A stretch of DNA of 64,000 bases from an uncultured Spartobacteria bacterium (GTDB lineage: Bacteria; Verrucomicrobiota; Verrucomicrobiia; Chthoniobacterales; Chthoniobacteraceae): positions 1 to 64,000 of the forward strand of contig CAIRYQ010000006.1 in the NCBI GenBank assembly GCA_903882875.1, written 5' to 3'. The position numbers and the translations under genes were made by a program. Under the pieces are notes generated by a model. That model had not been told where the DNA came from. It saw nothing but the letters and a program-made list of their open reading frames with translations, and did not search any database. Positions within the stretch are counted from its first letter, which is position 1. Every line of letters starts with the position of its first letter. This document shows, in pieces, positions 9,316 to 32,643 of the stretch.

Positions 9316-9427
9316 AGTGTGTCATGCACTTCTCGATGCTGTCGGTGTCCAGAAAGTGAGCCGGTGGTCGAGCGAGGAACGCGCGAATGCTCGCGGTTCA
9401 CACGGCACACGGCATAGTCTCCGTGCG

Positions 9428-10867: not shown

Positions 10868-10955
10868 CGCCACGCCCGCCCGCGCCCGCAAGGAAGCTGC
10901 GCGCCGGGTGAGTCAAACGCATGAACCGAAAAGCAACACCGTTGAGATTTGAGAC

Positions 10956-11033
10956 GGCATTATTCATTTGACGCAGGGTTGCCCTGTAAGCCGGCCGTGT
11001 TTCTCTCTTACAGTTGCGTCAAACCGATAATCC
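10956..11033 (+). repeat. 78-bp element with terminal inverted repeats, copy 2
   Basis: Begins GGCATTATTCATTTGACGCA and ends TGCGTCAAACCGATAATCC. It is the same length as copy 1 at 5193-5270 with 12 differences. In this copy an inner stem CTGTAAG/CTTACAG is also present. It lies 12 bp beyond the stop of the CAP/VCBS gene and about 90 bp after xseA, so it might also serve as a terminator between these convergent genes. Confidence 0.75.
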
Positions 11034-11044
11034 CGGGTCAATGG

Positions 11045-13075: not shown

Positions 13076-13545
13076 GGGCTTGTGCCTTGGTAGTGAAATT
13101 GTGGGCATATGTCGAGAAGGAATGTGCGGACTCTCGTCCATGCAGATTTTATTGATTTTCCCAGAAATTATAAGCATCCGCCATTCCACCTTCTGAAAGA
13201 ACAGTCCTGATTCACCACCCGCCCATCGTAATCACCATTCATGTGCTTCCCTGGTCAAACCAGCAAGCTCTGCAAAATGCCGTGCCCTGAGATGTTTCGC
13301 TCTCGAAATGCGCCAAACGCAAAAATGAAGAGCATATCATTCGTACGGTTAGTGGACAAGCAGCAGCCTCCATCGTGTCTCACAGGTTGAAAAAATAGTG
13401 AGCACTGATTTTCGCGGAGCTTCCCGCTCCTGAACACATCCGGTCTCCGCTCGTCGCACGCCCGTGGATCGCGTACGCAGGGCGGATTGTCCAGCTTGGA
13501 TCACGCGTCCGCCTCGGCTCGATTTTCCTCTTGCTTGGCCTCGGG
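13076..13545. other. Divergent intergenic region at the edge of the glycan locus
   Basis: 470 bp between the CAP/VCBS gene (minus) and the first glycosyltransferase (plus), presumably carrying both promoters. I see no clear RNA gene or repeat. The glycosyltransferase frame stays open back to a TGA near 13400 but has no ATG or GTG there, so it could be the decayed start of a longer protein or chance. Confidence 0.4.
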
Positions 13546-14622: not shown

Positions 14623-14630
14623 GTTCGATC

Positions 14631-17281: not shown

Positions 17282-17417
17282 GAATGTTAGCTTATTTTGG
17301 CGAACGCTCCGGAAGTCAAGTTTCTGAGAGTTTTGGGACTGGAAAGAATAACTCCTGTTAAAAAATGCAAGTATTGGCGCTTGGCTGGTGGCTGGATTGT
17401 CCTATTCTTGGCTAGCA

Positions 17418-18326
17418 TTAGTCAATGCGCTTGAACACCATCATCTGTGGCCGGGAAAAGCGGCGAAAGCGTGTATGCAGTGCATGGTTGCACCAGTCTT
17501 CGAAGCGGTGCAGTGCGACTGTCAATGAAGGCAGTTTGCGGAATATTGTGCGCCAGATTTTGCTCATCCGCTGATTCCAAGACGATCCGGGTGACGACAC
17601 ATAGGACGACAGCGCATTATTTCCCCAGCCTTGCTGCACGACGGCGGCCAACTTGAACCCAGCATATTCGATGCTGCCGACATAGTACCTGGCTGGAAAC
17701 GGAAACTCATAAACCCCGTACTTCTGGCAGTAAGGGTGGCCTGTCATGAGGGCGCGCATTTCCTCCGCGGTGTCGGCATACCATTCGCGAATCAGGACCC
17801 AGGTGCCGCCGTGCCTGACCTTCTGCCGGATTGCGGCGGCAATCATTGGGATATTGGGAAAATGGTGGACGCAGTTTCTCGTGATGATGGTGCGATAGGT
17901 CTTTTCGTCGGCATACCATGCACCGAGATCATTCCAGATGCCGAGGCGGCCCTCGAATTGCGCTATCTGCGTCTTCAGCCAGGCAGTGCCCGTGAAGAAG
18001 AGAGGATTCGGCTCCAAGAGATCGATCTGTGCAAAGCCGTCCTTCGCCAGGCTCCACGAAAGTTGTCCACTGCCACCGCCGATTTCGCAAACCGGGTCTG
18101 TGCGCGAGATGCCGAAGACATTGAGAAGGTCGGCAATCTGTGTGAAATCGAGGCTGTCGTAAAAGCGTTGGAATGCTTGGGCGCGATCCTTTTCCCAATA
18201 CATGGATTCGACGACACTCTTCGCGACGGGGTTTGTGTCGCTGGCGGCGATCTCCTCTTCAATGAGATGCTCCCAGAGAGCGGGATCCTCTTTGAGGCCG
18301 TAAAATTCAATTTTCCGTTCTGCCAT
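17418..18326 (-). CDS. SAM-dependent methyltransferase of a glycan locus
   Basis: A 302-residue protein with SAM motif I DPVCEIGGGSGQLSWSL, acidic IDLLEPNP and YRTIITRNCVHHFPNIPMI as motif II region. It resembles putative sugar O-methyltransferases in polysaccharide clusters. The C-terminal 60 residues are basic and aromatic, perhaps membrane-associated. It lies 136 bp upstream of the minus-strand GT-A gene and may form a unit with it. Substrate is unknown. Confidence 0.75.
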   Translation of the reverse strand: MAERKIEFYGLKEDPALWEHLIEEEIAASDTNPVAKSVVESMYWEKDRAQAFQRFYDSLDFTQIADLLNVFGISRTDPVCEIGGGSGQLSWSLAKDGFAQIDLLEPNPLFFTGTAWLKTQIAQFEGRLGIWNDLGAWYADEKTYRTIITRNCVHHFPNIPMIAAAIRQKVRHGGTWVLIREWYADTAEEMRALMTGHPYCQKYGVYEFPFPARYYVGSIEYAGFKLAAVVQQGWGNNALSSYVSSPGSSWNQRMSKIWRTIFRKLPSLTVALHRFEDWCNHALHTRFRRFSRPQMMVFKRID

Positions 18327-18755
18327 GGATCAATGGTGGCTTGTAAATGGAAGCGTGCGATAGATACCGGCATTCGGCGGGTCAAGAGATTCCTCTGCTT
18401 CATTGCATGACACGGGTTCTTGCAATGACGGCTGAGCGCGTCCTCTTCCGCCTGTCCCGGGCTTTCGACCGTTGAGGCGTCTGTGCGGGCGACACTGCAT
18501 GAATTCAATGCCAAACCCCCAAAGCCGCGCCTCACTACTGCGTTTTTAGGCGAGGCCTTCAGATGATTGAGATCACTCCATGATTTGCCTCATGATGTCC
18601 CCCTGCGTCCTGCACGCTTGCAGAAAGAATCTGCGCCGCCGGCAGCCCGGCACAAACCCTAGAAAGAGAGCTTGTCGCAGCCCGGATTATTTCCAAAATG
18701 ACGCGCTTCTGGTATCTCCGATGTCTCAACCTATCCCAACCGGCTGTATGCACGC
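18327..18755. other. Divergent intergenic region with no recognised gene
   Basis: About 430 bp between the divergently transcribed methyltransferase and GT4 genes. I see no conserved coding sequence, repeat or RNA fold. It should contain both promoters. Confidence 0.4.
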
Positions 18756-19961
18756 ATGAATTCCGCATGGCGACGCTCTGTGGACGACCTTGAGTCAGCA
18801 TCCGCAACGATGACTCGCCGTGGATGGTCCGACGCGCCCCCGGTTACGGTCGCCATTCCTTTCGAGTATTCCAGTGCGTGGGCCGCACAGACGAGCTTCC
18901 TGCGCGCTGTCGCGGTTTCGATGCATATGGCGAGGCATCGGCATGGGAGAGTTTTTGTCATTAACGTCTCAGGTGACGCTGGTGAGAACGCGCTTTCCAC
19001 CGATGTCCGGGAACTCTGCATCCCAGTCGAACGCGAGGTATGGTTCGATCATGCCGCCCGCAACGCCTTGCTCGCGTCGCTTGAGATTGATTGCGTGTTC
19101 AGCTTGTTTGGACTGCCGCCTGTTGTCGAGGGTTTCGGCTTGGTGGGCTGGATCGCGGATTTCCAGCACTTTCGGATGCCGGAATTCTTTTCCCAAACAG
19201 AAATAAGTGCGCGCGATGCCCATTTCGGCGACATCATCGCGCGCTGCGATCGCGTGCTGCTATCCAGCCGCGATTCGGAACGTGATTGCATCCGTTTTAG
19301 CCCGGCGGCACTAGGAAAGACGCGCGTGCATCCATTTCCTTCAGGGCTCATTTTTCAACCCACGCCGACGACAAACATTGTCGCAAAATATCATTTACCG
19401 GAAAAGTACGCTTTAGTCGCCAATCAATTTTGGGCGCACAAGAATCACCTCACCGTCATCGAGGCGGCGCGTCAGATTGCGGAACGTGGCCTGCACCTGC
19501 CCATCGTTCTGACAGGATTGCCAGCCGACTATAGGGATCCGTCGAACAGCCTCATTTCCAAAGTGCTGCAGGGTATCGCAGCCGGTGGATTGCGTGCCAG
19601 TGTGATCCCGCTCGGACAAGTGCCGTATCCGGATCTCGTGGCACTGCTGCGCTCGGCGGCGCTCATTATTCAGCCTTCGAGGTTCGAGGGCTGGAGCACC
19701 ACTGTGCAAGATGCGAAGGCGCTCGGGAGGCCGGTGGCATGTTCGTCCATCGCGGTACACCGCGAGCAAGCGCCTGAGGCGATAGGCTTCTTCCGACCGA
19801 CTGAAGCAGGAGAACTGGCCGCCTTGCTGGAACGCGAATGGCCACGCCTGTCGGCCGGGCCGGATCTGGAAACGGAACGCATTGCGCTCGCGAGGGAACG
19901 CTGCTTCGCCCTTGATTACGGGCGGGCACTCTTGCAGACCTGTGCGGAAGCCACAGGCTAA
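18756..19961 (+). CDS. Glycosyltransferase family 4-type
   Basis: A 401-residue GT-B protein. The C-terminal donor-binding half is clear: YALVANQFWAHKNHLTVIEA, GLHLPIVLTGLP, VIPLGQVPYPDLVALLRSAA and the E-x7-E type region LIIQPSRFEGWSTTVQDAKA followed by LGRPVACSSIAVHREQ. The N-terminal half is a weaker acceptor domain. The retaining transferase presumably extends the surface glycan. Start is uncertain: ATG at 18756 is used, and an internal ATG at residue 19 would remove a poorly conserved leader. Next gene follows after 12 bp. Confidence 0.85.
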   Translation: MNSAWRRSVDDLESASATMTRRGWSDAPPVTVAIPFEYSSAWAAQTSFLRAVAVSMHMARHRHGRVFVINVSGDAGENALSTDVRELCIPVEREVWFDHAARNALLASLEIDCVFSLFGLPPVVEGFGLVGWIADFQHFRMPEFFSQTEISARDAHFGDIIARCDRVLLSSRDSERDCIRFSPAALGKTRVHPFPSGLIFQPTPTTNIVAKYHLPEKYALVANQFWAHKNHLTVIEAARQIAERGLHLPIVLTGLPADYRDPSNSLISKVLQGIAAGGLRASVIPLGQVPYPDLVALLRSAALIIQPSRFEGWSTTVQDAKALGRPVACSSIAVHREQAPEAIGFFRPTEAGELAALLEREWPRLSAGPDLETERIALARERCFALDYGRALLQTCAEATG

Positions 19962-19973
19962 CCTTTCAAGATC

Positions 19974-20990
19974 ATGTCGCGAATCCTAAAAAAACTCTTC
20001 GGAACCGAGCGTCTCACCAAGTCCGTGGGCGAATTGGAAAAGGCGTCCACACGCACGCAGCACGATATCGGCTCGCTTCGAGTGCAGGGCGAGCTTCTGG
20101 CGCGTGATGTCGAGTCGCTGAAATTGCTCTGCGGCCAAATCGCGGCGCAGCAAGTGCGGACTCTGCCGGCGGGGGCCGCACTTCGCGAGTCCGAGTTTCA
20201 AGTATTCTCGCAATGGGGTGAGGACGGCATCATTCAATTCCTGCTCGCACATGTGCCGGTGGCAAATGAAGTGTTTGTTGAGTTCGGCGTGCAAGATTAC
20301 GTTGAAAGCAATACACGCTTCCTGCTGATGAACAACCTCTGGTCAGGATTGATCATGGATGGTTCGGAAGAATGGATGGCCGCCGTACGCAAGTCCAATC
20401 TCTCTTGGCGGCACACCTTGCACGCAAAGGCTGCGTGGGTCACCTCTGAGAATGTCAACGATCTCATCTCGAGTGCCGGGATCAGCGGAGACATCGGCAT
20501 TTTGAGCGTGGATATCGACGGCATGGATTACTGGGTATGGAAGGCGATCAATATCGTCCAGCCGCGCATCATCATCGTCGAATACAACGCGCTGTTTGGC
20601 CCCGACATCAAGGTCACCCCGCCGTACAATCCCGGCTTCGAACGAGCGAAATCACATCACAGCCATCTCTTCTATGGAATCTCGCTATCAGCCATCGGGC
20701 AGCTCGGCTCCGAGAAAGGCTACACGCTCGTCGGAACCAACACGGCAGGCAATAATGCATTCCTTGTGCGCAAAGATCTCGCTTCTGTATTTCCGAAGCG
20801 CAATGTGTCTGAATTGTACAGGGCCGCGCGCTTCAGGGAAGCGCGGGGAACGGATGGTCAACTCGCATTTCCGACTTTTGCGGAAGCCCAAGCGATGATA
20901 GCCGATTGCATTGTGCAAGATTTGAGCACGGGCACCCAGCTCATGCTCAAGGATGTGAATGGATGGAGGATTGGCATCGGGACGACGTAG
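19974..20990 (+). CDS. FkbM-like protein of a glycan locus, function unassigned
   Basis: A 338-residue protein. The first about 60 residues are coiled-coil-like. The core begins SQWGEDGIIQFLLAHVPVAN with EVFVEFGVQDYVESNTRFLL, then ILSVDIDGMDYWVWKAINIV and PRIIIVEYNALFGPDIKVTP. The FVEFG and DIDG elements recall motifs I and II of FkbM-type methyltransferases, but the sequence is distinct from typical FkbM. It is found next to glycosyltransferases, and the 12-bp gap from the GT4 gene indicates co-transcription. Methyl transfer is inference. Confidence 0.6.
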   Translation: MSRILKKLFGTERLTKSVGELEKASTRTQHDIGSLRVQGELLARDVESLKLLCGQIAAQQVRTLPAGAALRESEFQVFSQWGEDGIIQFLLAHVPVANEVFVEFGVQDYVESNTRFLLMNNLWSGLIMDGSEEWMAAVRKSNLSWRHTLHAKAAWVTSENVNDLISSAGISGDIGILSVDIDGMDYWVWKAINIVQPRIIIVEYNALFGPDIKVTPPYNPGFERAKSHHSHLFYGISLSAIGQLGSEKGYTLVGTNTAGNNAFLVRKDLASVFPKRNVSELYRAARFREARGTDGQLAFPTFAEAQAMIADCIVQDLSTGTQLMLKDVNGWRIGIGTT

Positions 20991-21097: not shown

Positions 21098-22264
21098 TCA
21101 CGGCACAACCACGGCATCGTTCGTTTCCGAAGCATCCCTTTCCTTGCGGAGATAGGATCGGCGCATTTCGATGAATGGCCGCTCAATAATCTGGAATGTC
21201 AGCCAGGAGAAGGCTGAAAGAAAAGGCAGGATGACAAAGGTGAAGGTCAGGGCGGCGTTAGTCGTGAGGCTTTGCGCAAATTGCGGTAGATAGCGATATG
21301 CCGGGAAGTCGTGAACAAACAGCCAGTGGTTCACGTAGATGGAAAAGCTGAGCATGCCGAGCCAGGCAAAGAGCCTTGAGACTTTATTAGGCCAGTCAAT
21401 TTCACATTTCACATAGGCGATGACAAAGATCGCCCACCCTAGAGCCTCCAGATCAGGCCAGTAAATCCAGAGGGAAGCCCCGTCCCTGATATGCCAATAA
21501 CCCCCTTTGCGGTGGAAGAAATAGATGCATCCTAACGGAACAGAGAACAAGAGTGTTGCCGAGCTCCAGTGTTTGAGCCATGAGGGAAACGTCAGATTCG
21601 ATCGGCCCGAATAGATGCAGCCCGCTAACATTCCAATGACAAATTGATCGAGTCGTCCGAGAATGGTCCAATACGTGATGTTCTTAAGTTGCGCCGCTTC
21701 CGAAGACCACCAGACCATACCCCTGACCGAGAGCGTGATTGCGAGCAAACCCAATGCATAGCGCATCCCATATCGCCCTACGAACATGATCAGGAATGGG
21801 AATAGCAAGTAAAATTGGAATTCGGTCCTGATTGTCCAGAGATGAGGTGTGATCGGCACATAGTCAACCCCACCCGCCGTCCCAAGGCCGGCGATAGGAA
21901 ACAGGAAAGAGGTCACGAAAGCTCGCGGGCCTTGCGGAGAGAGCGTTGCCGCAACGAAAATCGCGACTCCGAACAGTGGCACGATGCGAAGGATGCGATT
22001 GACCACAAAATCCTTGTACACTATTTGGCGTTTGTAGCCGATAGCGGAAAATATGAATCCGCTTAACACCATAAACAAGGCGACACCCGTGTGTCCTTCG
22101 ACAATAAGGGCGGAAAAAAGGTGCTTCGTCCTGATCGTTGATTCGTGTCCCCCGTTGAATCCCGGTGTCTGAAAATGGTAAAAATGGTAAATTCCGACGA
22201 GAAGCGCGGCAAAGAAGCGGAGATGATCCAACTTCCGGATATAACCGATATTCTTACTAATCAT
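21098..22264 (-). CDS. Acyltransferase 3 (OafA-type) membrane protein
   Basis: A 388-residue multi-pass protein with family features: LDHLRFFAALLVGIYHFYHF with the conserved R and catalytic-type H, GHTGVALFMVLSGFIF, FVVNRILRIVPLF, HLWTIRTEFQFYLLFP and FSIYVNHWLFVH. About ten hydrophobic helices. OafA-family proteins O-acylate surface sugars from a cytoplasmic acyl donor. It is the last gene of the nine-gene operon, and its ATG overlaps the stop of the preceding gene as ATGA at 22261-22264. Confidence 0.9.
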   Translation of the reverse strand: MISKNIGYIRKLDHLRFFAALLVGIYHFYHFQTPGFNGGHESTIRTKHLFSALIVEGHTGVALFMVLSGFIFSAIGYKRQIVYKDFVVNRILRIVPLFGVAIFVAATLSPQGPRAFVTSFLFPIAGLGTAGGVDYVPITPHLWTIRTEFQFYLLFPFLIMFVGRYGMRYALGLLAITLSVRGMVWWSSEAAQLKNITYWTILGRLDQFVIGMLAGCIYSGRSNLTFPSWLKHWSSATLLFSVPLGCIYFFHRKGGYWHIRDGASLWIYWPDLEALGWAIFVIAYVKCEIDWPNKVSRLFAWLGMLSFSIYVNHWLFVHDFPAYRYLPQFAQSLTTNAALTFTFVILPFLSAFSWLTFQIIERPFIEMRRSYLRKERDASETNDAVVVP

Positions 22265-24441
22265 GGTTGTTCCGACGACTTAGCGCACACGACAATGATC
22301 TCATCCCGATGGGCAACGGTTTCCAGCGTTGTCAGATGGTGACGGCGCAGAAGAGCGGGCAGCGAACGGGAATCGAACAACTGACAATGATGCGGCAGGA
22401 TGAAGCCCCACCAATCCCATCCTTGGGCTTTGGCGGCATCACAACGGAGATTCGGAGTCGAGAGGATCAATTTCCCCTTATTAGTCAGGACTGCAACGAT
22501 GTCTTTTAGAAATGCGTCGAGATCCCAGATATGTTCAATCACGTCGCTGCAATAGATGATGTCATATTTCCTCTCGAGACGGACAGAACCGATCGGGCCG
22601 CGATAAAGGGTGAGTGATGGATACCTGAGCAAAAATTCATCGCAGTAATATGCGGTGATTTCACATCCGGCGACGTGGCTTGCTTTGTCTGAGAGGGCGA
22701 TCATTGCGGCGAATCCGCCCATATTGCAACCGAGGTCGAGAAATGCATCAGCGGGCGATTTCCTAGCAAGGACAAACTCCAAAAGGTATCGGTGATGTTG
22801 TTCGAAAGGTGTGAGATTCGAAGCCTGCGAGCACATGAGCCTGTCCAGCCATGCCTTAGTTACGATTGGCTGGGACTCCGCCAAATACCTACTGACGACT
22901 AGCGAGAAAAACTTCGGATCGTTCTCCAGGGAATCAATCAAACCTTCCGGGCGCTCTGGAACAAAATACAGACCACACGCGCGGCATTCGGCGATCGGAA
23001 TCGAAGGGTCGCCACATCGGGGCATGATGTCCGATTTGTGGAATGACGGAACACCCCATTTTACGAACGTCTGTGAATATGGACGGGAGGCAAGGTGAAC
23101 CACGTCTTGCGAGTCACACCCGGGACAGCGACCGCGGCGGGATCGGTACTCCAATGTGAGCGGAGTCGGAGGCGGTTCCACCGAGAATTGGCGTTCGCGT
23201 GCAAAAGGATCTGTCTGAAGGCTCTCGGGCTTCTGTGGAATTACCATATGATTTCCCGGACGGGGGAAAATTGCCCGCGTGAGACGTTTCAGTGAAGCAG
23301 AGATTCGTTTTCGCAATGTCGGTTTCCTGATTTTATTGTTCCTCCCGGCCGCCACTTTGCTTGTTGAATCCAAAGTTCGGCGGATAATTTCTTCAAAGTC
23401 CCTGGCACGCCGTTCCATGCTGTAGTCACGGAAACAACGATCCTGGCCGCGTTTCGCTATTGTCCGGCGCTCATCAGGATGATCGAGGTAATAAAAAATC
23501 TTCTCCATCAGTTCTTCCTTGCTACGGTAAGTCTCGATTTCCACACCGGGATCAAAGTAGGGAGCATTGTTATGGTGCTCCATAAGTTGAAACGATCCAG
23601 TCCCAGCTATCTCAAAGAGGCGCATGTTCGCCGACTGGCCCTGTCCGATGTCGATCACGCCGTTGAGGCAGATGCGGCTGCGTTTCAATGCACGGTGCAT
23701 TTCCAATCCGAATCTGGCGCCATGATTAACCATCGCGATGGCTGCGGGCAACTGGGCGCGAGATTGTGCCAGAAGGTAATAATCGAGCTTGAAATCCCTC
23801 GGCTGCGTGTGGGTGGCCTTTGCAAGATCCAACCATTGCTTGTTTCGAGTGTCATGCGATGCGCTCCATTGACCGCAGAAAGTGACATCCGTGGTTTCGG
23901 GTTCATCCTTTACAGCCTCGGCCAAGAATGCCGGGAAGCCAGGATGGAAGCGTTCACTGGATCGCGCTCCGCGCTCGATTGCGAGCTTTAGCGTTGCCTC
24001 GTGATTGGAGATCATCACATCAAAAAGGCTCCAATCCGTTGTCGGCAATACCGGAGCAGCCCGCCAGCCGAGAACAAGGCGGGGCCGCTTTGGAAGGCTG
24101 CGGATAAAGGCGCTGTCATAGATCACCGGATCACTAAGATACAGGACATCCGGATCAAACTCCGCGACCTGCCTTCTGAGTATGTCGTCTGCGCTTTCCA
24201 AAGGATTGACTCCGAATTGCCTGCACCAGGCGTCTTGTCCTTCGATGAAGTTGGGAATCAGCAAGCGACTGTCGAATTGCCGCGGATTCAAGTGCGATGC
24301 AAGGAGGTGGCAGGCGCCAAAGCCATCTGCCAATAATGTCTTCATGGCTGCCTGATGGCTGCAGAGTTCCAGCTCCGGATGGTGGACCGCGAAACCCTGG
24401 AGATACGGTCCATAAAAAGTATGTATCTGAAGAAATTTCAT
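22261..24441 (-). CDS. Fusion of CgeB-like glycosyltransferase and Zn-ribbon SAM methyltransferase
   Basis: A 726-residue protein. Residues about 1-350 resemble GT-B transferases of the CgeB/Glyco_trans_1_2 type (RICLNGVIDIGQGQSANMRL, FEIAGTGSFQLMEHHNN, YFDPGVEIETYRSKEELMEK). A basic linker follows. From about 430, RGRCPGCDSQDV and IAECRACGLYFVP form a two-CxxC zinc-ribbon as in Methyltransf_13, followed by a Methyltransf_23 core with AFLDLGCNMGGFAAMIAL and YDIIYCSDVIEHIWDLDAFL. It probably transfers and modifies a sugar. ATGA overlaps join it to both neighbours. Confidence 0.82.
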   Translation of the reverse strand: MKFLQIHTFYGPYLQGFAVHHPELELCSHQAAMKTLLADGFGACHLLASHLNPRQFDSRLLIPNFIEGQDAWCRQFGVNPLESADDILRRQVAEFDPDVLYLSDPVIYDSAFIRSLPKRPRLVLGWRAAPVLPTTDWSLFDVMISNHEATLKLAIERGARSSERFHPGFPAFLAEAVKDEPETTDVTFCGQWSASHDTRNKQWLDLAKATHTQPRDFKLDYYLLAQSRAQLPAAIAMVNHGARFGLEMHRALKRSRICLNGVIDIGQGQSANMRLFEIAGTGSFQLMEHHNNAPYFDPGVEIETYRSKEELMEKIFYYLDHPDERRTIAKRGQDRCFRDYSMERRARDFEEIIRRTLDSTSKVAAGRNNKIRKPTLRKRISASLKRLTRAIFPRPGNHMVIPQKPESLQTDPFARERQFSVEPPPTPLTLEYRSRRGRCPGCDSQDVVHLASRPYSQTFVKWGVPSFHKSDIMPRCGDPSIPIAECRACGLYFVPERPEGLIDSLENDPKFFSLVVSRYLAESQPIVTKAWLDRLMCSQASNLTPFEQHHRYLLEFVLARKSPADAFLDLGCNMGGFAAMIALSDKASHVAGCEITAYYCDEFLLRYPSLTLYRGPIGSVRLERKYDIIYCSDVIEHIWDLDAFLKDIVAVLTNKGKLILSTPNLRCDAAKAQGWDWWGFILPHHCQLFDSRSLPALLRRHHLTTLETVAHRDEIIVVCAKSSEQP

Positions 24442-26183
24442 TGGAAAACCCTGTCTAGCCGGGCCGGTGCGTCACCAGTTAAGTTAAGGATGAAAGGCAT
24501 CCTGTTTCCCGCAAGGAACATCTCCTGCCAAATCACTAAGTTCATCTTGGACCAAAGACCGAGGAGCGTGTCCCAGTCCGAATGCTTCCAACCGCGGGAG
24601 GCTGATCGGGAGAGGAGCAGTTCCCCCGCCTTTTTCGCATCCCAAGAAGTGGTGCTGCGCCAAAAGTCGGACTGGATGATCCGGTCCAGAAATCCGCCGA
24701 GGCCGCTGTTGAACCAATGGATCATCGGCGAGTTAAATCCGATTTTCGCCCGGCGCCACCGCAGTGGGTCGGGCAGGATGCCTTCCATGGCATCGCGAAA
24801 AATGCGTTTGGTATAGCCTGCTCCGACTTTGCTGTCAGCAGGCAGGCTGAAGGTAAGGCAGACGAGGCGCCAGTCCATGAGCGGCATCCGTACTTCCACG
24901 CCGCTGGCCATGGAGGTGCGATCATAGTTGCGCAAGATCGAGGGAAGAAGCGAACGGTGGAACTGGTCGTATAGCCGTCCGTTCAGTTCGCCGATGGACC
25001 AGTCGAGCCATGAAGGGTAGCCGCAGAGCATCTCATCTGCGCCGTGGCCGTCGAGCGAGACTACCACTCCGTGCCGCCGCATCTGTCTGTAGTTCAGGAC
25101 GGCGGGCACGGCGATGCCTGGATAGACGTCCTCCATGCACCACACGGATTCTATGACATCTTCTGCCTGAACATTGTCACCGAATTCGGTGATGTGCATG
25201 TGCGCACCTGCAGCTTCGGATGCGAGGCGGGCGTGATGTGTTTCATCCAGTGGTGTTCCGGGGAAGGAGGCGGTAAAGGCATGGCGCCAGTCACCAGTCT
25301 CGCGTTCATGCGAGCGATCCTGCCGGGCTGACCATGCCATCGCGCAGGCCACCGCGCTGGAGTCCAGGCCACCGCTGAGACTGGTGCCGATCGGGACGTC
25401 GCTCCTCATCCGGATGGCCACGGCATCCAGAAACAATTCACGCCATAGCGTCACCTGATCTTCGTAACGCAGAGGCGGGGCGGCAAGATGATCGGCGGTG
25501 TTCCACCAGCGCCGCACCCGTGCTCCATGCGAGTCCACAGTCATGCAGTGCCCGGGGAGAAGTTTGTTCACTCCGCTGAGGAGTGTCTGTTCCTGCGTCC
25601 CTTCGCAGGCCTGCGGGCTGTTCAGCGCAGTCTCCACGATGGCATCATTGAGTTTGGGCGTGAAGCCTTCGAGTGCGAGGAATGCCTTCATTTCCGACGC
25701 GAAGGCAAAGCGCGAATCCTGGATGTAGTAGAGCGGCTTTACTCCAAAGCGGTCACGGGCGATAAATAGCTTCTGCGACTCCGCATCCCAGATGGCGCAA
25801 GCCCACATCCCGTTAAAACGGAGAAGGCAGTCCTCGCCCCATTCGGCATAGGCGGCGACCACGACCTCGGTGTCGGTTTCGCTGCGGAACTTATGGCCCA
25901 GCGCCGACAACTCACGGCGCAGTTCGATGAAGTTATAAACCTCACCATTGAAAGTAATCCAATAGCGTGCTCCAGTACCCGGCAGGCCGTATGGCATCGG
26001 ACAGCGGCCGGCTTCGGTGGGATCGAGGATGGCCAGCCGCCGGTGGCCGAGCCCGACGGGGCCGTCCACATGCACCCCCCAGCCATCGGGCCCGCGATGA
26101 CTCAGTGTATGGGTGAACCGCTCGACCGTCGGCGCTGAAACCGGATCACCGTCATAATGGAAGATACCAGCAATTCCGCACAT
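24438..26183 (-). CDS. asnB: Asparagine synthase-type amidotransferase
   Basis: A 581-residue AsnB homologue. Cys2 (MCGIAGIFHYDGD) is the glutaminase nucleophile, with HRGPDGWGVHVDG, FNGEVYNFIELRREL and RDRFGVKPLYY in the class II domain. The synthetase domain carries the PP-loop TSLSGGLDSSAVACAM and SLDGHGADEMLCGYPSW. Length is typical. In a sugar operon, such enzymes often amidate a uronic acid or amino-acid substituent rather than make free asparagine (for example WbpS in Pseudomonas O-antigen); which applies here is inference. Eight bp separate it from the aminotransferase gene. Confidence 0.88.
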   Translation of the reverse strand: MCGIAGIFHYDGDPVSAPTVERFTHTLSHRGPDGWGVHVDGPVGLGHRRLAILDPTEAGRCPMPYGLPGTGARYWITFNGEVYNFIELRRELSALGHKFRSETDTEVVVAAYAEWGEDCLLRFNGMWACAIWDAESQKLFIARDRFGVKPLYYIQDSRFAFASEMKAFLALEGFTPKLNDAIVETALNSPQACEGTQEQTLLSGVNKLLPGHCMTVDSHGARVRRWWNTADHLAAPPLRYEDQVTLWRELFLDAVAIRMRSDVPIGTSLSGGLDSSAVACAMAWSARQDRSHERETGDWRHAFTASFPGTPLDETHHARLASEAAGAHMHITEFGDNVQAEDVIESVWCMEDVYPGIAVPAVLNYRQMRRHGVVVSLDGHGADEMLCGYPSWLDWSIGELNGRLYDQFHRSLLPSILRNYDRTSMASGVEVRMPLMDWRLVCLTFSLPADSKVGAGYTKRIFRDAMEGILPDPLRWRRAKIGFNSPMIHWFNSGLGGFLDRIIQSDFWRSTTSWDAKKAGELLLSRSASRGWKHSDWDTLLGLWSKMNLVIWQEMFLAGNRMPFILNLTGDAPARLDRVFQ

Positions 26184-26190
26184 GGTGTCA

Positions 26191-27309
26191 TTAGGGCTCC
26201 CGCACCGCTGCCTCTAAGTGGTTCGCGACATACGAAACCGTATCTTCGGACATCTCCGGATAGATGGGCAGAGACAGCATTTCCCGGCTGTGCCTCTCCG
26301 CGCAGGGAAAGTCACCGGGGCGGCTGCCGAGATATTGATAAGCCTTCAAAAATGGCAGGGGCGTGGGGTAATGCTGCGTGGTGGCGATGCCTGCCTCCAC
26401 GAGCTTTTTCTGCACTGCTTTTGCCTGCGCCACACGCACGCTGTAAACATGCCACACATGCTCGCAGCCGGAACGTGTCGCGGGCAACCGAATGCCTTCG
26501 ACGCCGGACAGGGCGGAATCATAGGCGGCTGCGATGCGACGGCGGGCCTGCGTCCATTCACGGATATGCGGCAGCTTGGCCAGCAGCACTGCAGCCTGCA
26601 ACCCGTCCATCCGGCTGTTGATGCCTTCCATGACGTGATCGTGCTTGTCTGTGGGGCTGGAGCCGTGGCGCGCAAAGGAACGGCACCTGGCAGCCAGTTC
26701 ATCATCATTGGTCACAATGGCGCCGGCATCACCGTAAGCGCCGAGATTCTTGCCGGGGTAAAAGCTAAATGTGGCGGCGGTGCCAAACGTTCCGACACGC
26801 TGTCCTTGGTAAGTTGCATAATGCGCCTGCGCGCAGTCTTCGATAAGATGCAGGCCGTGCATCTTGCAAAGCGATTGCAGAGGATGAAGATCCGCTGCCT
26901 GGCCCAGCAGGTGAACTGCAAGGATGGCCTTGGTCCGAGGAGTGATTCTCGCTGCGACGATCGCGGGATCGAGTGTGTAGTAGGCGTCCTCAGTGTCGGC
27001 GAACACGACGCGGGCACCGGTCTGAGTGATCGTCTCGGAACTCGCGATCCAGGAGTTTGCCGTGGTGATCACTTCGTCGCCCGCGCCGATTCCGAGCTGC
27101 TTGAGGACGATGTAAATCGAGTCGGTGCCGTTCGCGCAGGAGATGCAATGCTTCACGCCATAATCGGCTGCATAGGTCTTTTCGAAATTCTCCACAAACC
27201 GCCCACGGATGAAGGCGGACTCGGCGATCACTGCGGCGATGGCTTCATCAATCTGCGGCTTAATGGCCAGATACTGGGCGTGGAGGTCGAAAAGTGGAAC
27301 GCGTTTCAC
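26191..27309 (-). CDS. DegT/DnrJ/EryC1-type sugar aminotransferase
   Basis: A 372-residue PLP enzyme: VPLFDLHAQYLAIKPQID, GVKHCISCANGTDSIYIVLK, IEDCAQAHYATYQGQRVGTF and the Schiff-base lysine K187 in FSFYPGKNLGAYGDAGAIV. The family transaminates keto-sugars on nucleotide carriers. Together with the Gfo/Idh dehydrogenase at the head of the operon this is the WbpB-WbpE/WlbA-WlbC pairing that makes 3-amino-3-deoxy uronic sugars, a likely but unproven role. The start is GTG at 27309, 30 bp after the HAD gene. Confidence 0.92.
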   Translation of the reverse strand: MKRVPLFDLHAQYLAIKPQIDEAIAAVIAESAFIRGRFVENFEKTYAADYGVKHCISCANGTDSIYIVLKQLGIGAGDEVITTANSWIASSETITQTGARVVFADTEDAYYTLDPAIVAARITPRTKAILAVHLLGQAADLHPLQSLCKMHGLHLIEDCAQAHYATYQGQRVGTFGTAATFSFYPGKNLGAYGDAGAIVTNDDELAARCRSFARHGSSPTDKHDHVMEGINSRMDGLQAAVLLAKLPHIREWTQARRRIAAAYDSALSGVEGIRLPATRSGCEHVWHVYSVRVAQAKAVQKKLVEAGIATTQHYPTPLPFLKAYQYLGSRPGDFPCAERHSREMLSLPIYPEMSEDTVSYVANHLEAAVREP

Positions 27310-27339
27310 GATTTCAGGATGCGGTGGGAAGGAGACATC

Positions 27340-27981
27340 TCAGAGGCCGACTGTCGTGGCAACATCATTGATACCCGCGAGGATGAAATCCGGTTCGAGC
27401 AGCCGCAGCGAATCTTCCACGCCCATTCCGGTGAGCACGGCTGCGGTGCGGCATCCGAGCGCCTTCCCCGCGCGGATGTCGGTGGCCATGTCGCCGATGA
27501 ACCAAGAGGCTGAAAAATCACAGTCCGGTAGAGCTTCACGGACGAGTCCTACCTTCACCTGCCACGCCTCACGCTGCGGATCATGCCCGGACAATACCAA
27601 GTCCAAATGCTCCGCCAGCCCGGTGTGGGACAGTTGCCAGGCGAGCGCATGCGGATCGCGGCGCAAAGTCACGAGCACCACTCGGCCAGCGTTGCGTACC
27701 CTTCGCAGAAGGCCCGGCACGCCGTCGAAAATTGTATCGAAGGCCAGCCATTCAGGATGCTCCACCCGTTCCAGGAATCCTGATTCATAGCGGGCGAGCA
27801 GAGATTCCGCGCCGGTCCAGGAAAGAATGTCGCAAGTCTTGAGGCCGCCGCGGCGCAATCGCCAGTAATCGTCCTTTCCCATCGGCTTGTGGCCGTTTTC
27901 ACGGAGGAGATGGCTGTAGATCCGGTGAAACTTCTCCGACACATCGAGCAGTGTGCCATCCAGATCACAGAAGACGGTCAC
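27340..27981 (-). CDS. HAD-superfamily phosphatase
   Basis: A 213-residue protein. HAD motif I is FCDLDGTLLD (nucleophile D6, acid D8), motif II VLVTLRRD, motif III lysine in AWQVKVGLVR and motif IV FIGDMATDIRAGKALGC. The GTG at 27981 is chosen because it overlaps the stop of the preceding gene as GTGA at 27978-27981, the same coupling seen elsewhere in the operon; the frame is open further to 28011. It probably dephosphorylates a sugar phosphate or a phosphorylated intermediate of the pathway. Confidence 0.85.
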   Translation of the reverse strand: MTVFCDLDGTLLDVSEKFHRIYSHLLRENGHKPMGKDDYWRLRRGGLKTCDILSWTGAESLLARYESGFLERVEHPEWLAFDTIFDGVPGLLRRVRNAGRVVLVTLRRDPHALAWQLSHTGLAEHLDLVLSGHDPQREAWQVKVGLVREALPDCDFSASWFIGDMATDIRAGKALGCRTAAVLTGMGVEDSLRLLEPDFILAGINDVATTVGL

Positions 27982-28730
27982 TTTCGACAAATGGCGAAAA
28001 GATTGGAGCAAAGGCCGGCGTCAGCCTCCAAGCTTACCTCAAAAATGGCGTCCAACAGCTCACGTGGCCAGCCTTTCATCTGCGCCTGGGAAACGAGCTT
28101 GATCATGAAGCCGCCGAGCTTCTCGATGGTGAAGCCTGCGGCGCGCAGATCGGCGGTGAATTCCGGGATGGAATACACGCGGCGGTGTCCCACGGTGATG
28201 TCCTGTTTGTTCAGCGCATTGGTTGCCTGGAGGAGTCCCATCTTTACACCGATGCGGCGGTGCAGCGAGCCACAGTGGGGCACAGTTACGAATGCGGTGC
28301 CGCCGACCTTCAGCCACTGCCACGCCTGCCTCATCACCTCCACCGGATGTTCGACGTGTTCCAGCACATGCGTGGCGATGGCCACGTCCACAGGCTGGGC
28401 GGGTGTGAATGCTTCGAAAAGTGAATGCACCGCATTGACATTTTCAGGCGCGATTTTGCAGAAGTCCTTCGTAAGGGCGGCGGATCCTTCGACGACCGTG
28501 AGGTGGGCGACGTGCGGCGCGAGACCGGAGGCAGCGGCACCCTCGCCGACACCCATCATCACCGCATGGGCATTACTCAGGCCGAGCTCTCCGCGATGCT
28601 TCAGGATGGTCTGGAGGTCATAGTAAGCCGTGATATCTCGGTTTAGCTCCCCGGCCTCGGTTCGATACAGCTTTGCCGCCTCGTCGAGCCGCTGCGCTTC
28701 ACTGTTCGTGGATTGAGTGTCGGGATTCAT
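27978..28730 (-). CDS. SAM-dependent methyltransferase (Methyltransf_11/23-like)
   Basis: A 250-residue protein. AVMMGVGEGAAASGLAPHVA is a variant motif I, HLTVVEGSAALTKDF the acidic strand, and VDVAIATHVLEHVEHPVEVM with LKVGGTAFVTVPHCGSLHRR the post-motifs typical of class I methyltransferases and some glycan-locus homologues. It lies 5 bp after the epimerase stop and overlaps the HAD gene by 4 bp. Likely methylates the sugar product or a related group; target unknown. Confidence 0.82.
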   Translation of the reverse strand: MNPDTQSTNSEAQRLDEAAKLYRTEAGELNRDITAYYDLQTILKHRGELGLSNAHAVMMGVGEGAAASGLAPHVAHLTVVEGSAALTKDFCKIAPENVNAVHSLFEAFTPAQPVDVAIATHVLEHVEHPVEVMRQAWQWLKVGGTAFVTVPHCGSLHRRIGVKMGLLQATNALNKQDITVGHRRVYSIPEFTADLRAAGFTIEKLGGFMIKLVSQAQMKGWPRELLDAIFEVSLEADAGLCSNLFAICRK

Positions 28731-28735
28731 GGTCT

Positions 28736-29671
28736 CTACTTATCGAAACTGCGTGCCGAAGAGGGCGGCAAGCAAAAATTGGCCAAGCCGCGCAGGGTCC
28801 GTTCAAGGGCGGTAGTAAAATTTGAAAGCGGTGTGTCGTGCGTAGCGGCATTCAGTTTTTCAATGTTAAAGCGGTAGTTCACCAAAGCTTTCCTGCGCGG
28901 ACGGTGCTCAACGACGAATTCACGACCTGTAATGCCGGACAAAGTGCGAATGACATCGTTCAACGACCTGCTCGTTCCTGACGCCACATTGAACACACCG
29001 CAGGCGTTCCCGTTCTCGATGAGAGCTGCAAGCAGCGCGGCTGCATCCTCCACAAACAGAAAGTCACGCAGGTCGCTGCCATCTCCGTACAATTCGATGC
29101 GCGAGCCGGCTCCGATACTCCGGAGCACATTGGGAATGAACTTTTGCGATGAATCCCCGGGGCCAAAGACCTGTGTGAGCCTAGCAGTAATGCAGGGCAC
29201 CGCATGACTCTGAGCCCATTCGCGACAAAGCTCCTCTGTCTTCAGTTTGGATCGCGCATACAGGCTAAGAGGAGCGATTGGCGATGTCTCGCTTAGTATG
29301 GCATCGCCTGTGGGCGGCGCATAGACATCCAGGGTGCTAAGGTGAATGATGCGTCCCGGGAGCGCGTCTAGGGCGTTCAGGAGGTTAAAGGTGAGGGTGA
29401 TGTTCGATTCAAAGACTTGAGGCTGTTGTATGCCAACGGTCGCGGCCGGTGTTACTGCAGCAGCGTGGACGACTGCGCCAAAGCATTCGTCGCGCAGAGT
29501 GTCGGCGGTAGCAGACAGGTCTAGCAGGTCTGCCACCAAAGTTCTGACCTTCGGCGACGGCGATGGTGAGGCATCTCGTGCCAAGGCAGTTACCTCATGG
29601 TTATGACCCGCAAGTTTCGCAATAAGTGCCCGACCTGCGAATCCGGTTGCGCCGGTGACAAGAATCTTCAT
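28736..29671 (-). CDS. NAD-dependent epimerase/dehydratase (extended SDR)
   Basis: A 311-residue extended SDR. It has the Rossmann motif KILVTGATGFAGRALIAKL (GxxGxxG), VVHAAAVTPAA, an active-site Ser in HLSTLDVYAPP, and YARSK (YxxxK), with SDLRDFLFVEDAAALLAALI and FNVASGTSRSLNDVI in the substrate domain. It acts on nucleotide sugars, as in GalE/RmlD relatives; the exact reaction is not clear. ATG at 29671 overlaps the stop of the ATP-grasp gene as ATGA, which fixes the start. Confidence 0.88.
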   Translation of the reverse strand: MKILVTGATGFAGRALIAKLAGHNHEVTALARDASPSPSPKVRTLVADLLDLSATADTLRDECFGAVVHAAAVTPAATVGIQQPQVFESNITLTFNLLNALDALPGRIIHLSTLDVYAPPTGDAILSETSPIAPLSLYARSKLKTEELCREWAQSHAVPCITARLTQVFGPGDSSQKFIPNVLRSIGAGSRIELYGDGSDLRDFLFVEDAAALLAALIENGNACGVFNVASGTSRSLNDVIRTLSGITGREFVVEHRPRRKALVNYRFNIEKLNAATHDTPLSNFTTALERTLRGLANFCLPPSSARSFDK

Positions 29672-30759
29672 CCTTGCCTCGCGATACGCGCCCATAATGC
29701 TTGTTCGCAGGCGTCTATCTCGCTCATCGTGATGAGCACGGGCTTGCAGTCCATCCCGCGCACCCACGCGAGCCCCGGCGGTAGCGGATTGATTCTTTTT
29801 TCCAGCGGCGGCAGGGGCTCGCCATAGCCGAGCTTTACATAGATATAAGGCATGTTCAGTCCCGCGGCGGTGAAAAAATAATGCGTGGTGAAGAACCGGC
29901 CAATGTTAATCTCGGTCAGGTTCGGCATGCCTTTCTGATCAAAGGTCAGATCCACGCCAAAGATTCCATTTGGCTTGTCCGCGACTGCGCGGACTGCCCG
30001 TTGTGCGAGATCATCAAGCACCGGATCGGAGACTGTCACTCCGGTGCCGGTGATGCCGGTGACGCCGGAGGGAGCGCGGTTTCCAAATTCCCAATAGAGC
30101 CGTTTCCTGCCCTGGGCCACGACGAGTTCACCATCATGCCAAATAGACTGCCAGGTGATGCTCTCCGGCCTTAGGCACTCTGCGGCGGTGAAATTTCCCC
30201 AGCCTTTGTGCAAATCAATCCAGCGGACAGATGTTTCAAAGTCGTCCGTGGGGAGCGAGCCGCGGCCTGCCGAACCGCGGATCTCCCGCAGCCATAGTTT
30301 CGGACCAACACGGCGGAAGGCTTCCTTTAAGTCCTCCGCATTGTGCAGCATCATCGTCGCGGGCACAGGGACGCCGGCCTGGCTCCATCGCTCATAGCTC
30401 AGGAACTTGTTCTCACAGATATCAATGCTTTCGTGAGAGGGGAGAAAAGTGCGCACGCCGAGCTTGTCGCGCAGGGCGGAGATGGTGAGCATTTCATAGC
30501 TCATCTGGCAGTGGATGAACTCGACGCCCGTTTCCTTTACGATGTCCTGAAGCACACCAATGTAGGCTGGATCCTTGGCCTTTGGGACCAGGAATTTTTG
30601 ATCGGTCTCGGCACGCTGGAGCGTGAACTTATTGGCATCTATGCCGACAAGGTGGAATGGCTCGGGGGCATCGCGAAGTGAACGGACGAAATTGGTGGCC
30701 GGCGAACCGCCTGCGGAGGTGACGAGGATGCGTTTCACGGTCGTATCAAGCTTGCTCAT
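29668..30759 (-). CDS. ATP-grasp enzyme (carbamoyl-phosphate-synthase-like)
   Basis: A 363-residue protein. The N-terminal domain starts VKRILVTSAGGSPATNFVRS. The ATP-grasp core includes ENKFLSYERWSQAGVPVPAT, PKLWLREIRGSAGRGSLPTD and the metal site GIFGVDLTFDQKGMPNLTEI with NIGRFF. ATP-grasp ligases activate a carboxylate and join it to an amine or thiol. In this operon it could attach an amino acid or other acid to an amino sugar. ATG at 30759 overlaps the dehydrogenase gene by 14 bp; GTG at 30738 is an alternative. Confidence 0.85.
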   Translation of the reverse strand: MSKLDTTVKRILVTSAGGSPATNFVRSLRDAPEPFHLVGIDANKFTLQRAETDQKFLVPKAKDPAYIGVLQDIVKETGVEFIHCQMSYEMLTISALRDKLGVRTFLPSHESIDICENKFLSYERWSQAGVPVPATMMLHNAEDLKEAFRRVGPKLWLREIRGSAGRGSLPTDDFETSVRWIDLHKGWGNFTAAECLRPESITWQSIWHDGELVVAQGRKRLYWEFGNRAPSGVTGITGTGVTVSDPVLDDLAQRAVRAVADKPNGIFGVDLTFDQKGMPNLTEINIGRFFTTHYFFTAAGLNMPYIYVKLGYGEPLPPLEKRINPLPPGLAWVRGMDCKPVLITMSEIDACEQALWARIARQG

Positions 30760-31789
30760 CCGCAACACACTGGATGCGCTGGCCGCCGCTGCGCTGGCTC
30801 CGGTCAACGGCATCGAGCACTGCCACGGTGTCGCGGGCATGCCATCCATCAGTGAGCGGCCTTGCGCCTTTGAGGATACAGTCTATAAAATGTTCACACT
30901 CCACGCGCAGGGGCTCCCTGCGCTCAAAGGCGGGCATGATGACGTCGCCGTGCTGGGGTTTCCACGCATGGATCGGCTGATCAAAAGGGAGGCCGTCGCG
31001 CTTCACCTTTTCAAAGCCTTTGTTGTAGATCGTGATAGGGTTCTCCGAGATATCGTCATAGACAATCATCTTTCGTGACCCCACGACGGTTAGCCTGCGC
31101 ACCTTATTAGGATCCAGCCAGCTAACATGGATGGTGCCGGTGACTCGGTTGGCCCATTCCAATGTTGCGAAGGTGACATCCTCGATGCCCGGCTGGAGGT
31201 AATCCACGCCGCGTGCCGACACGGCGGCAGGCAAAAGGCCGTTCATCAGGTAAAGCATGATGCTCACGTCGTGCGGCGCGAGGTTCCACCACGCGTTCAC
31301 ATCCTGGCGGAGCTGTCCCAGATTGAGCCGCTGGCTGTAGCAGTAATAGACATCGCCGATGTCGCCGATGTCGATCGCGGCCTTCATGTAGCGCACCGAC
31401 GCGTTATAGAGGAAGGTGTGGCCGACCATGAGCACTTTGCCCTTATTGTCTGCAAGCGCCGCGAGGCGATTTGCATCGGCGACGTTGGTGGTCAGCGGTT
31501 TTTCCACAAGGACGTGTTTCCCGGCATTCAGGAACCGCTCAACCAATCCGGCATGGGTCGCCGCCGGTGTCGCGATGACCGCTGCGTCCACAGCCGGATC
31601 GTTGAGGACGGCCTCGACATCCGCGCAGGTTTTTGTGTTCGGAAAGTTTGCCTCGACGAAGGTACGCCGGGCCGGACTCGCGTCCGCCACCCACTTTACC
31701 GAGCAGTTCGACAGGGATGAAAATACCCGCAACAAATTCGGCCCCCAATAGCCGCAGCCCACTTGGGCAACTGTGATTGATTTGTTCAT
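30746..31789 (-). CDS. Gfo/Idh/MocA sugar dehydrogenase (WlbA/WbpB-like)
   Basis: A 347-residue NAD-dependent oxidoreductase: Rossmann motif VAQVGCGYWGPNLLRVFSSL, the catalytic EKP in GKHVLVEKPLTTNVADAN, and HTFLYNASVRYMKAAI with WWNLAPHDVSIMLYLM placing the family histidine. It is similar in layout to UDP-GlcNAcA 3-dehydrogenases. As first gene of the nine-gene operon it probably makes the keto-sugar used by the DegT aminotransferase. No signal peptide, so cytoplasmic, unlike the two Tat-exported relatives further on. Confidence 0.9.
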   Translation of the reverse strand: MNKSITVAQVGCGYWGPNLLRVFSSLSNCSVKWVADASPARRTFVEANFPNTKTCADVEAVLNDPAVDAAVIATPAATHAGLVERFLNAGKHVLVEKPLTTNVADANRLAALADNKGKVLMVGHTFLYNASVRYMKAAIDIGDIGDVYYCYSQRLNLGQLRQDVNAWWNLAPHDVSIMLYLMNGLLPAAVSARGVDYLQPGIEDVTFATLEWANRVTGTIHVSWLDPNKVRRLTVVGSRKMIVYDDISENPITIYNKGFEKVKRDGLPFDQPIHAWKPQHGDVIMPAFERREPLRVECEHFIDCILKGARPLTDGWHARDTVAVLDAVDRSQRSGGQRIQCVADEQA

Positions 31790-31896: not shown

Positions 31897-32643
31897 CTAA
31901 AAATCGCTGCACCCCGTCGGCCAGCTTTCCTGGGGCACGTAACCGAGCAGCTTCTCCGCGGAGGATAGATCAAACTTCGCCTGCACGAGCGCGCGGCTCA
32001 CGCCGTACACGATTGCGTGGCGCACGCTTTCCGGCGCTTCGACGGCGCACGCAAAGAAACGCCCCACGTCGCCGGGGCTGAAATACACGTCGCGGAAATG
32101 CTCGCTCGCCGCGATTTCCGAGACCTGCTCCGGCGTGCGGGGGCACCAGCCGAGCCGCGCGGTGATCACGCTCATGCCGTGCATTTCCACAAACGTCCGG
32201 CCGATGGATTCCATGAACATTTTCGTCGCGGCGTACCACGCCTTCGGGCTCACGGGATCCTCGGGCCGGATCGGAAAGGGCCCCGTGAACTGCTGCCACC
32301 AGTTCACCTGCCCGGAACTTGCAAGCACCATGCGCTTCACGCCCGCGCAGCGCGCCGCTTCCATCGTGTGGAAGAGGCCCGTGATGTTGTTCGGCAGCAG
32401 GCTCGCGAGAAAGTCGTCGTCGTCCGGCGTCGCCGCGAGGTGGATGACGCACTCGATTTTTTCCATCGCGCGATCCAGCGCGGCGCGATCGGCGAGCGTG
32501 CCGATCACGCAATCGTCGAGCCCGCGTGTCGGCGTGAGATCAAAGCCGCGCACGATGTGGCCGCGGCGCAGCAGTTCCGCGACGGCGGCGCGGCCGACTC
32601 TTCCCGATGAACCGGTGACAAGGACGCGGACAGGTTTGTTCAT
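31897..32643 (-). CDS. NAD(P)-dependent SDR epimerase/dehydrogenase
   Basis: A 248-residue SDR with VRVLVTGSSGRVGRAAVAEL, CVIHLAATPDDDDF, a serine in MVLASSGQVN, and YAATK (YxxxK). The short length and SSGRVG form recall uronate-dehydrogenase-like and NAD-dependent epimerase proteins. It lies just upstream (107 bp) of the nine-gene operon on the same strand, so it could belong to it or be a separate carbohydrate enzyme. Ends YVPQESWPTGCSDF. Confidence 0.85.
   Translation of the reverse strand: MNKPVRVLVTGSSGRVGRAAVAELLRRGHIVRGFDLTPTRGLDDCVIGTLADRAALDRAMEKIECVIHLAATPDDDDFLASLLPNNITGLFHTMEAARCAGVKRMVLASSGQVNWWQQFTGPFPIRPEDPVSPKAWYAATKMFMESIGRTFVEMHGMSVITARLGWCPRTPEQVSEIAASEHFRDVYFSPGDVGRFFACAVEAPESVRHAIVYGVSRALVQAKFDLSSAEKLLGYVPQESWPTGCSDF

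Follow-up and report, generated by a model that had tools for sequence, protein, structure and literature searches.

What is made by an operon in which a Gfo/Idh-type sugar dehydrogenase and a DegT aminotransferase are joined by an ATP-grasp ligase, a HAD phosphatase and a methyltransferase (MT), and what does the ligase do there? The question is raised by a 64,000-nucleotide stretch, called here the window, from an uncultured Spartobacteria bacterium (assembly GCA_903882875.1, contig CAIRYQ010000006.1, positions 1 to 64,000), in which nine co-directional open reading frames (ORFs) occupy positions 31789-21098 on the minus strand. For many of the amino-acid and hydroxy-acid amides of bacterial glycans, we know of no attaching enzyme. 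Bacterial glycans commonly carry such amides on their amino sugars (PMC10609480). The nine genes form a real, conserved amino-sugar operon. Its product is very probably a surface sugar that is aminated at C3 and whose amine is capped, not by the usual acetyltransferase, but by an ATP-dependent ligase together with a phosphatase and a methyltransferase. The interesting part is that the ATP-grasp/HAD/MT cassette recurs on several amino-sugar pathways; relative to the literature searched, it is a variant of known chemistry.

An operon with a conserved six-gene core

Each of the nine ORFs fits its named family by profile matches. In order of transcription, a Gfo/Idh/MocA dehydrogenase, predicted to be a nucleoside diphosphate-sugar 3-dehydrogenase (30746..31789; PF01408, 4.7e-27), is followed by the ATP-grasp ligase, for which acylation of the 3-amine is predicted (29668..30738; PylC-like_N and PRK12767-type matches), an SDR epimerase/reductase with the YxxxK motif (28736..29671; PF01370, 2.4e-50), a class I S-adenosylmethionine (SAM)-dependent MT of the same family as PDB 2p7h (27978..28730; PF13489, 6.2e-14; 7e-20 to 2p7h), the HAD phosphatase (27340..27981; HAD_2, 1.3e-10), a DegT aminotransferase of the nucleotide-sugar 3-aminotransferase group (26191..27309; PF01041, 4.7e-112) and an AsnB-type glutamine amidotransferase (24438..26183; PF00733, 3e-60, with GATase_7; asn_synth_AEB, 390 bits). 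The eighth gene (22261..24441) is a fusion of a glycosyltransferase (GT; residues about 1-390; Glyco_trans_1_2, 1.7e-25) with a methyltransferase (residues about 550-706; Methyltransf_23, 9e-16), and the last encodes a membrane O-acyltransferase of the Acyl_transf_3 type (21098..22264; PF01757, 1.8e-26). Four junctions are exact 4-bp overlaps, ATGA at ATP-grasp/SDR, AsnB/GT and GT/acyltransferase and GTGA at MT/HAD, and the other four are gaps of 7, 5, 30 and 7 bp. The GTGA overlap presupposes that HAD starts at GTG 27981, to which its start was revised; the ATP-grasp start was likewise moved, most likely to GTG 30738, because in the sister species described below conservation does not extend to the longer reading. 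This layout, including the four overlaps and the terminal acyltransferase, is as an earlier interpretation made from the letters alone (the sequence-only reading) had described it.

The nearest named relative with the operon is the metagenome-assembled genome (MAG) 'Verrucomicrobiota bacterium LBMAG_Verrucomicrobia_hypo.bin3'. In a congeneric sister species (G004; locus L016/L021), a six-gene core is found in unchanged order, with identities to the window of 91% for Gfo/Idh, 93% for ATP-grasp, 73% for MT, 84% for HAD and 94% for DegT, and of 68% over residues 1-391 for the GT part of the fusion. The ratio of nonsynonymous to synonymous substitutions (dN/dS) between the two species is 0.04-0.18 over all six core genes (0.064 for Gfo/Idh and 0.044 for ATP-grasp). 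The six ORFs are therefore genuine coding genes under purifying selection. No collinear match to the SDR, AsnB, C-terminal methyltransferase or acyltransferase gene was found at the sister-species locus, and the SDR, AsnB and acyltransferase are treated here as accessory.

AsnB has nevertheless left a scar. In the sister species, DegT and GT are separated by an 81-bp gap (L016:2827-2908) that aligns with the final ~62 nt of the window AsnB, collinearly with the GT start; it opens with bases that likewise resemble those at the start of AsnB. The score of this remnant was reached by none of 300 shuffles under more permissive scoring and by three of 300 under stricter scoring. Since this scar remains while the core persists, AsnB belonged to the ancestral operon and was deleted in the sister species; it is ancestral but dispensable. 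A 19-nt collinear match to the SDR was also seen, but was equalled by 32 of 300 shuffles and is not claimed as a remnant. Of the nine genes that the sequence-only reading had grouped together, AsnB and the SDR are not core, for the sister species lost the one and has no copy of the other.

The ATP-grasp/HAD/MT cassette in other genomes

Judged from its sequence, by family and by its metal- and ATP-binding residues (E276, N278 and R281), the window ATP-grasp fits the ATP-grasp carboxylate-amine ligases; E276-I-N278 and R281 are invariant in five homologues, and its PRK12767/PylC-type matches lie below curated cut-offs. Its predicted action on a sugar amine, already put forward by the sequence-only reading, finds support in the company that such enzymes keep. 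When HAD and MT of the window were used as separate queries over 387 genomes of the phylum, each search landed in the same genome from another Verrucomicrobiota family (G348), at adjacent genes (C20:4189 and C20:4934). The gene order there is RmlB-type dehydratase, flippase, RmlA, FdtA-type ketoisomerase, ATP-grasp, HAD, MT and DegT, and the solved structures closest to this DegT are WlaRG/QdtB-type 3-aminotransferases (among them 5u1z, which we take to be WlaRG). A congener, G651, has the identical order. Plasmid p1METDI of Methylorubrum extorquens DM4 carries RfbB-RfbD-RfbA-GT-GT-ATP-grasp-HAD-FdtA/QdtA-DegT, with an apparent transposase remnant after DegT. HAD lies directly after ATP-grasp or overlaps it in G348, G651 and M. 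extorquens, and its DxDGT, K and GDxxxD motifs are invariant among the window, the sister species, G348 and M. extorquens. A shorter run, dTDP-glucose 4,6-dehydratase-ATP-grasp-DegT, is present on a Nocardia plasmid. In Acetoanaerobium (Clostridia), an analogous ATP-grasp-HAD-MT run belongs to a flagellin locus of pseudaminic type, whose other genes include those for flagellin, PF02719 dehydratase, CTP_transf_3 cytidylyltransferase, NeuB and DegT, and in six alphaproteobacterial plasmid loci ATP-grasp is followed by a HAD of the DxDDT type. ATP-grasp, HAD and MT thus stand together near an amino-sugar aminotransferase in the window, the sister species, G348 and G651, and, with other subtypes, in Acetoanaerobium. 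Co-occurrence beyond the window genome, the absence of which would have counted against the sequence-only reading, is supported by these loci.

In dTDP-3-amino-sugar pathways, N-acylation by FdtC/QdtC normally comes after the aminotransferase. The cassettes of G348, G651 and M. extorquens sit on such a pathway, that of dTDP-Qui3N/Fuc3N (RmlA, RmlB, FdtA/QdtA, FdtB/QdtB and FdtC/QdtC), with which the window shares the 3-aminotransferase group, although the window uses Gfo/Idh, lacks RmlA, RmlB and FdtA, and has ATP-grasp/HAD in place of the FdtC/QdtC acetyltransferase. No N-acetyltransferase was seen in the stretches fetched for G348 and M. extorquens, nor in that part of the Clostridia locus that was visible. 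In G348 and M. extorquens, ATP-grasp-HAD(-MT) sits where FdtC/QdtC would be expected. Installation of an N-acyl group by ATP-grasp is the simplest common function. Our favoured interpretation, held at slightly better than even odds (about 0.5), is that the enzymes of the window operon assemble a 3-amino sugar, N-acylate it and transfer it, the N-acyl group being installed by ATP-grasp with HAD and probably MT.

Several findings weigh against this interpretation. MT is missing from the M. extorquens locus, and both HAD and MT from the Nocardia locus; the HADs of Acetoanaerobium and of the alphaproteobacterial loci are of a different subtype (DxDDT); and in G651 a hexapeptide transferase upstream of FdtA could itself be an acyltransferase. 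Orthologues of the window ATP-grasp were found in only two of 40 genomes of the family (the window genome and the sister species), and the cassettes do not all share an orthologous ATP-grasp: that of the window is only remotely related to the others (best direct match Nocardia, 7e-8) and has no direct match to that of G348, so that its role is assigned by context and by the homologous HAD and MT. An AlphaFold model of the enzyme built from two sequences reached a predicted local distance difference test score (pLDDT) of 32 and was not used.

Whether the cassette is general is a more tentative matter. ATP-grasp, HAD and MT may form an acyl-installing cassette across several phyla, serving UDP-3-amino sugars, dTDP-3-amino-3,6-dideoxyhexoses and pseudaminic-type acids, in which they would replace an N-acetyltransferase and use a phosphorylated acid donor later dephosphorylated by HAD; we consider this conceivable at somewhat longer odds than the function of the window operon itself. 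For the favoured interpretation, genetic precedent comes from Shewanella oneidensis, in which SfmE (ATP-grasp) and SfmD (methyltransferase) are required for full flagellin modification and a clear PseH is lacking; a substituent of 236 Da, open to methylation, is found on its glycan (PMC3765264). The sfmABCDE operon is like the window in pairing an ATP-grasp with a SAM methyltransferase, but acts on a nonulosonic acid on flagellin and has no HAD, Gfo/Idh or AsnB. Flagellin as the glycan target was rejected for the window, whose genome gave no flagellin match. In the literature searched, on glycan loci that combine ATP-grasp with DegT, Gfo or HAD, neither a description of the cassette nor a structure or biochemistry for it was found. 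A portable set of ligase, phosphatase and methyltransferase, recognisable by its gene order, would be a testable candidate for attaching a group of such amide decorations, and the order would provide a genomic marker predicting them. The window operon is a convenient test case, with its short core and natural AsnB-deletion variant.

Substrate, pathway and competing explanations

A Gfo/Idh and DegT pair, GnnA/GnnB, is known to place an amine at C3 of UDP-HexNAc to give the UDP-GlcNAc3N of lipid A. The window pair is like it by description, although the sugar would go on to ATP-grasp acylation and then a glycosyltransferase, not to lipid A acyl transfer. The best NCBIfam match of the window Gfo/Idh is the archaeal UDP-GlcNAc 3-dehydrogenase (NF040723, 154 bits, below the cut-off of 450). 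DegT scores 302 bits with DesV, 295 with QdtB, 271 with WbpE and 158 with NtdA, with 7b0d also among the best solved relatives; this is strong family evidence for grouping it with the enzymes that aminate C3 of nucleotide sugars. The sequence-only reading had recognised an amino-sugar operon in this pair, and to that extent it holds. It had also proposed a 3-amino uronic sugar made from the uronic acid of UDP-N-acetylglucosamine (UDP-GlcNAcA), which is weakened. Only two nucleotide-sugar 6-dehydrogenases (UDPG_MGDP_dh) were found in the genome, both matched best by UDP-glucose models (TuaD, 510 and 231 bits; PRK11064, a UDP-ManNAc dehydrogenase, 161 and 99; TviB, 61 and 19), and no WbpA-type UDP-GlcNAc 6-dehydrogenase was recognised in this draft, which is 96% complete and could hide one. 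Since both enzymes look UDP-glucose-type, UDP-GlcNAc or UDP-glucuronic acid (UDP-GlcA) is a likelier substrate than UDP-GlcNAcA, and only with UDP-GlcA would AsnB have an obvious sugar carboxylate to act on; otherwise its target might be the acyl group.

We infer the following order of reactions. Gfo/Idh would oxidise C3 of a UDP-sugar, most likely UDP-GlcNAc and less likely UDP-GlcA, and DegT, on strong family evidence, would aminate C3 to give a UDP-3-amino sugar. By its conserved context, ATP-grasp would then convert a carboxylic acid into an acyl phosphate and couple it to the new amine, occupying the slot of the N-acetyltransferase of other loci. Less surely, HAD may dephosphorylate either the acid, such as a phospho-hydroxy or phospho-amino acid, or the product of the acylation, and MT may methylate the acyl group or the sugar. 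Among the accessory enzymes, epimerisation could fall to the SDR, and AsnB could amidate a carboxylate, whether that of a uronic sugar or one carried by the acyl group. Transfer of the sugar and modification of the glycan would be the work of the GT-methyltransferase fusion, and the membrane acyltransferase would O-acylate the glycan.

The best surviving alternative, although unlikely, is a Wbp-like pathway to UDP-GlcNAc(3N)A, in which AsnB would convert the C6 carboxylate to a uronamide and ATP-grasp would add an amino acid to the amine. The model for it is the linking sugar of Porphyromonas gingivalis, 2-N-seryl, 3-N-acetylglucuronamide, made with WbpA, B, E, D and S, VimA and VimE (PMC7468200). 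Gfo/Idh, DegT and AsnB correspond at the family level to WbpB, WbpE and WbpS (PF01408 for the 3-dehydrogenase; DegT with its 271 bits to WbpE), the Porphyromonas product is likewise an amino-acylated, amidated amino sugar, AsnB is ancestral in the operon, and a UDP-glucose 6-dehydrogenase-type gene of the genome could supply UDP-GlcA. Set against this are the UDP-glucose type of both 6-dehydrogenases, the absence of a WbpD hexapeptide N-acetyltransferase among the ten scanned cluster proteins, and the sister species, which dropped AsnB yet retained the core. AsnB itself scores 325 bits with the WbpS family (eps_aminotran_1, TIGR03108; cut-off 816.9), below its asn_synth_AEB score, and ATP-grasp, HAD and MT stand where Porphyromonas has VimA/VimE. 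The product type has precedent, in this linking sugar, a seryl-acylated glucuronamide made through WbpB/WbpE/WbpS (PMC7468200), and in Shewanella SfmE, but the window enzyme set has none in the literature searched.

A less probable alternative is that the target of ATP-grasp is not the sugar amine but a carboxylate in the glycan, an amino acid or amine being placed on a uronic acid, while HAD and MT serve other steps. ATP-grasp enzymes couple carboxylates and amines in either polarity. O-antigens, moreover, include amides of uronic acids with amino acids (PMC10609480). However, the cassettes of G348, G651, M. extorquens and Nocardia are located in dTDP-6-deoxy-sugar loci, in whose examined stretches no uronic-acid gene was recognised, and HAD is closely coupled to ATP-grasp in the first three of these.

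A kanosamine-type pathway is very improbable. Gfo/Idh, DegT and HAD would act on glucose-6-phosphate or UDP-glucose, as in NtdC/NtdA/NtdB- or rif-like systems, and the free 3-amino-3-deoxyglucose would then be acylated by ATP-grasp to a small molecule. The same three activities, a Gfo/Idh dehydrogenase, a DegT-type, pyridoxal phosphate-dependent aminotransferase and a phosphatase, do make kanosamine in NtdCAB/KabCAB (PMC8788734), and the window HAD weakly matches TIGR01454 (AHBA synthesis associated protein, 36 bits). The window DegT, however, belongs to the nucleotide-sugar group and not to the NtdA-type sugar-phosphate aminotransferases (158 bits with NtdA, but 302 with DesV and 295 with QdtB), HAD accompanies ATP-grasp and not Gfo/Idh, its subfamily recurs in three loci that have a dTDP-linked sugar and no Gfo/Idh, and the operon carries a glycosyltransferase and a polysaccharide-type acyltransferase. 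The sequence-only reading, to which the combination with a HAD phosphatase was unfamiliar, had overlooked both the kanosamine set and this pairing. Just as improbable is a composite glycan island, in which the genes would belong to several independent modifications and the common neighbourhoods would result from a general tendency of polysaccharide genes to cluster: related ATP-grasps are indeed frequent in glycan loci with variable partners, and the SDR, AsnB and fusion domain are not common to the sister species, but the independent HAD and MT searches met at adjacent G348 genes, the cassette genes overlap and the six-gene core is conserved.

Related loci and neighbouring genes

In the phylum sample, the next ATP-grasp matches are only about 24-29% identical to that of the window. 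A scan of the genome collection with an alignment of the ATP-grasp pair, for which the patterns were poorly chosen, brought back nothing but the sister species and a single weak match in a Clostridia MAG, and the phage collection gave no match. Around a wider set of Verrucomicrobiota ATP-grasps (alignment A2), 22 annotated loci frequently have SDR and DegT neighbours, and a motif screen of them found no HAD neighbour; HAD is therefore not a general partner of the wider family. In one genome of another Verrucomicrobiota family (L017:9555-15614), ATP-grasp, SDR, AsnB and DegT are consecutive, all distant from those of the window. A Bradyrhizobium barranii plasmid (L133:7-8502 with L027:7896-10935) has Gfo/Idh, DegT, two AsnB, ATP-grasp and a methyltransferase, a further amino-sugar locus uniting AsnB and ATP-grasp.

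The G651 MT gene (L141:7900-8630, minus strand) has one in-frame stop where G348 has Trp, and is either a pseudogene or affected by an assembly error. A second conserved context for the MT family of the window is found on Rhizobium and Tateyamaria plasmids (L024:4533-9576 and L028:3528-8576), with DegT, a WbqC-family protein, a GNAT protein, an MT related to that of the window, and two glycosidase-like proteins, one annotated 'glycosylase' and one hypothetical. On a plasmid of Ruegeria sp. B32 (L015:1-3457 and 8845-13292), ATP-grasp-HAD and flanking glycosyltransferases are present as two inverted copies that share their protein accessions and lie on either side of a gene annotated as methionyl-tRNA formyltransferase. 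The HAD-like WbuN near the N-acetylseryl-Qui3N antigen of E. coli O114 was not used as evidence, because the described cluster has fdtC and names no ATP-grasp, and S. Pomona also has WbuN.

In the window, another SDR (31897..32643, minus strand; PF01370, 7.6e-20) lies 107 bp before Gfo/Idh; it has no counterpart at the sister-species locus L016 and is probably outside the pathway. As the sequence-only reading had stated, no Wzx, Wzy or initiating transferase is present among the annotated genes of the island; flippase-family genes are located elsewhere in the genome (contigs C89 and C47). On the other side of the operon, further glycan genes (13531..20990) comprise two of GT2 type, a possible further GT, a methyltransferase, one of GT4 type and one unassigned ORF. 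The last of these, at 19974-20990, encodes 338 amino acids and has no Pfam match. At 14616-16346, a GT2 domain is joined to Methyltransf_24, giving the island its second GT-methyltransferase fusion beside that at 22261-24441.

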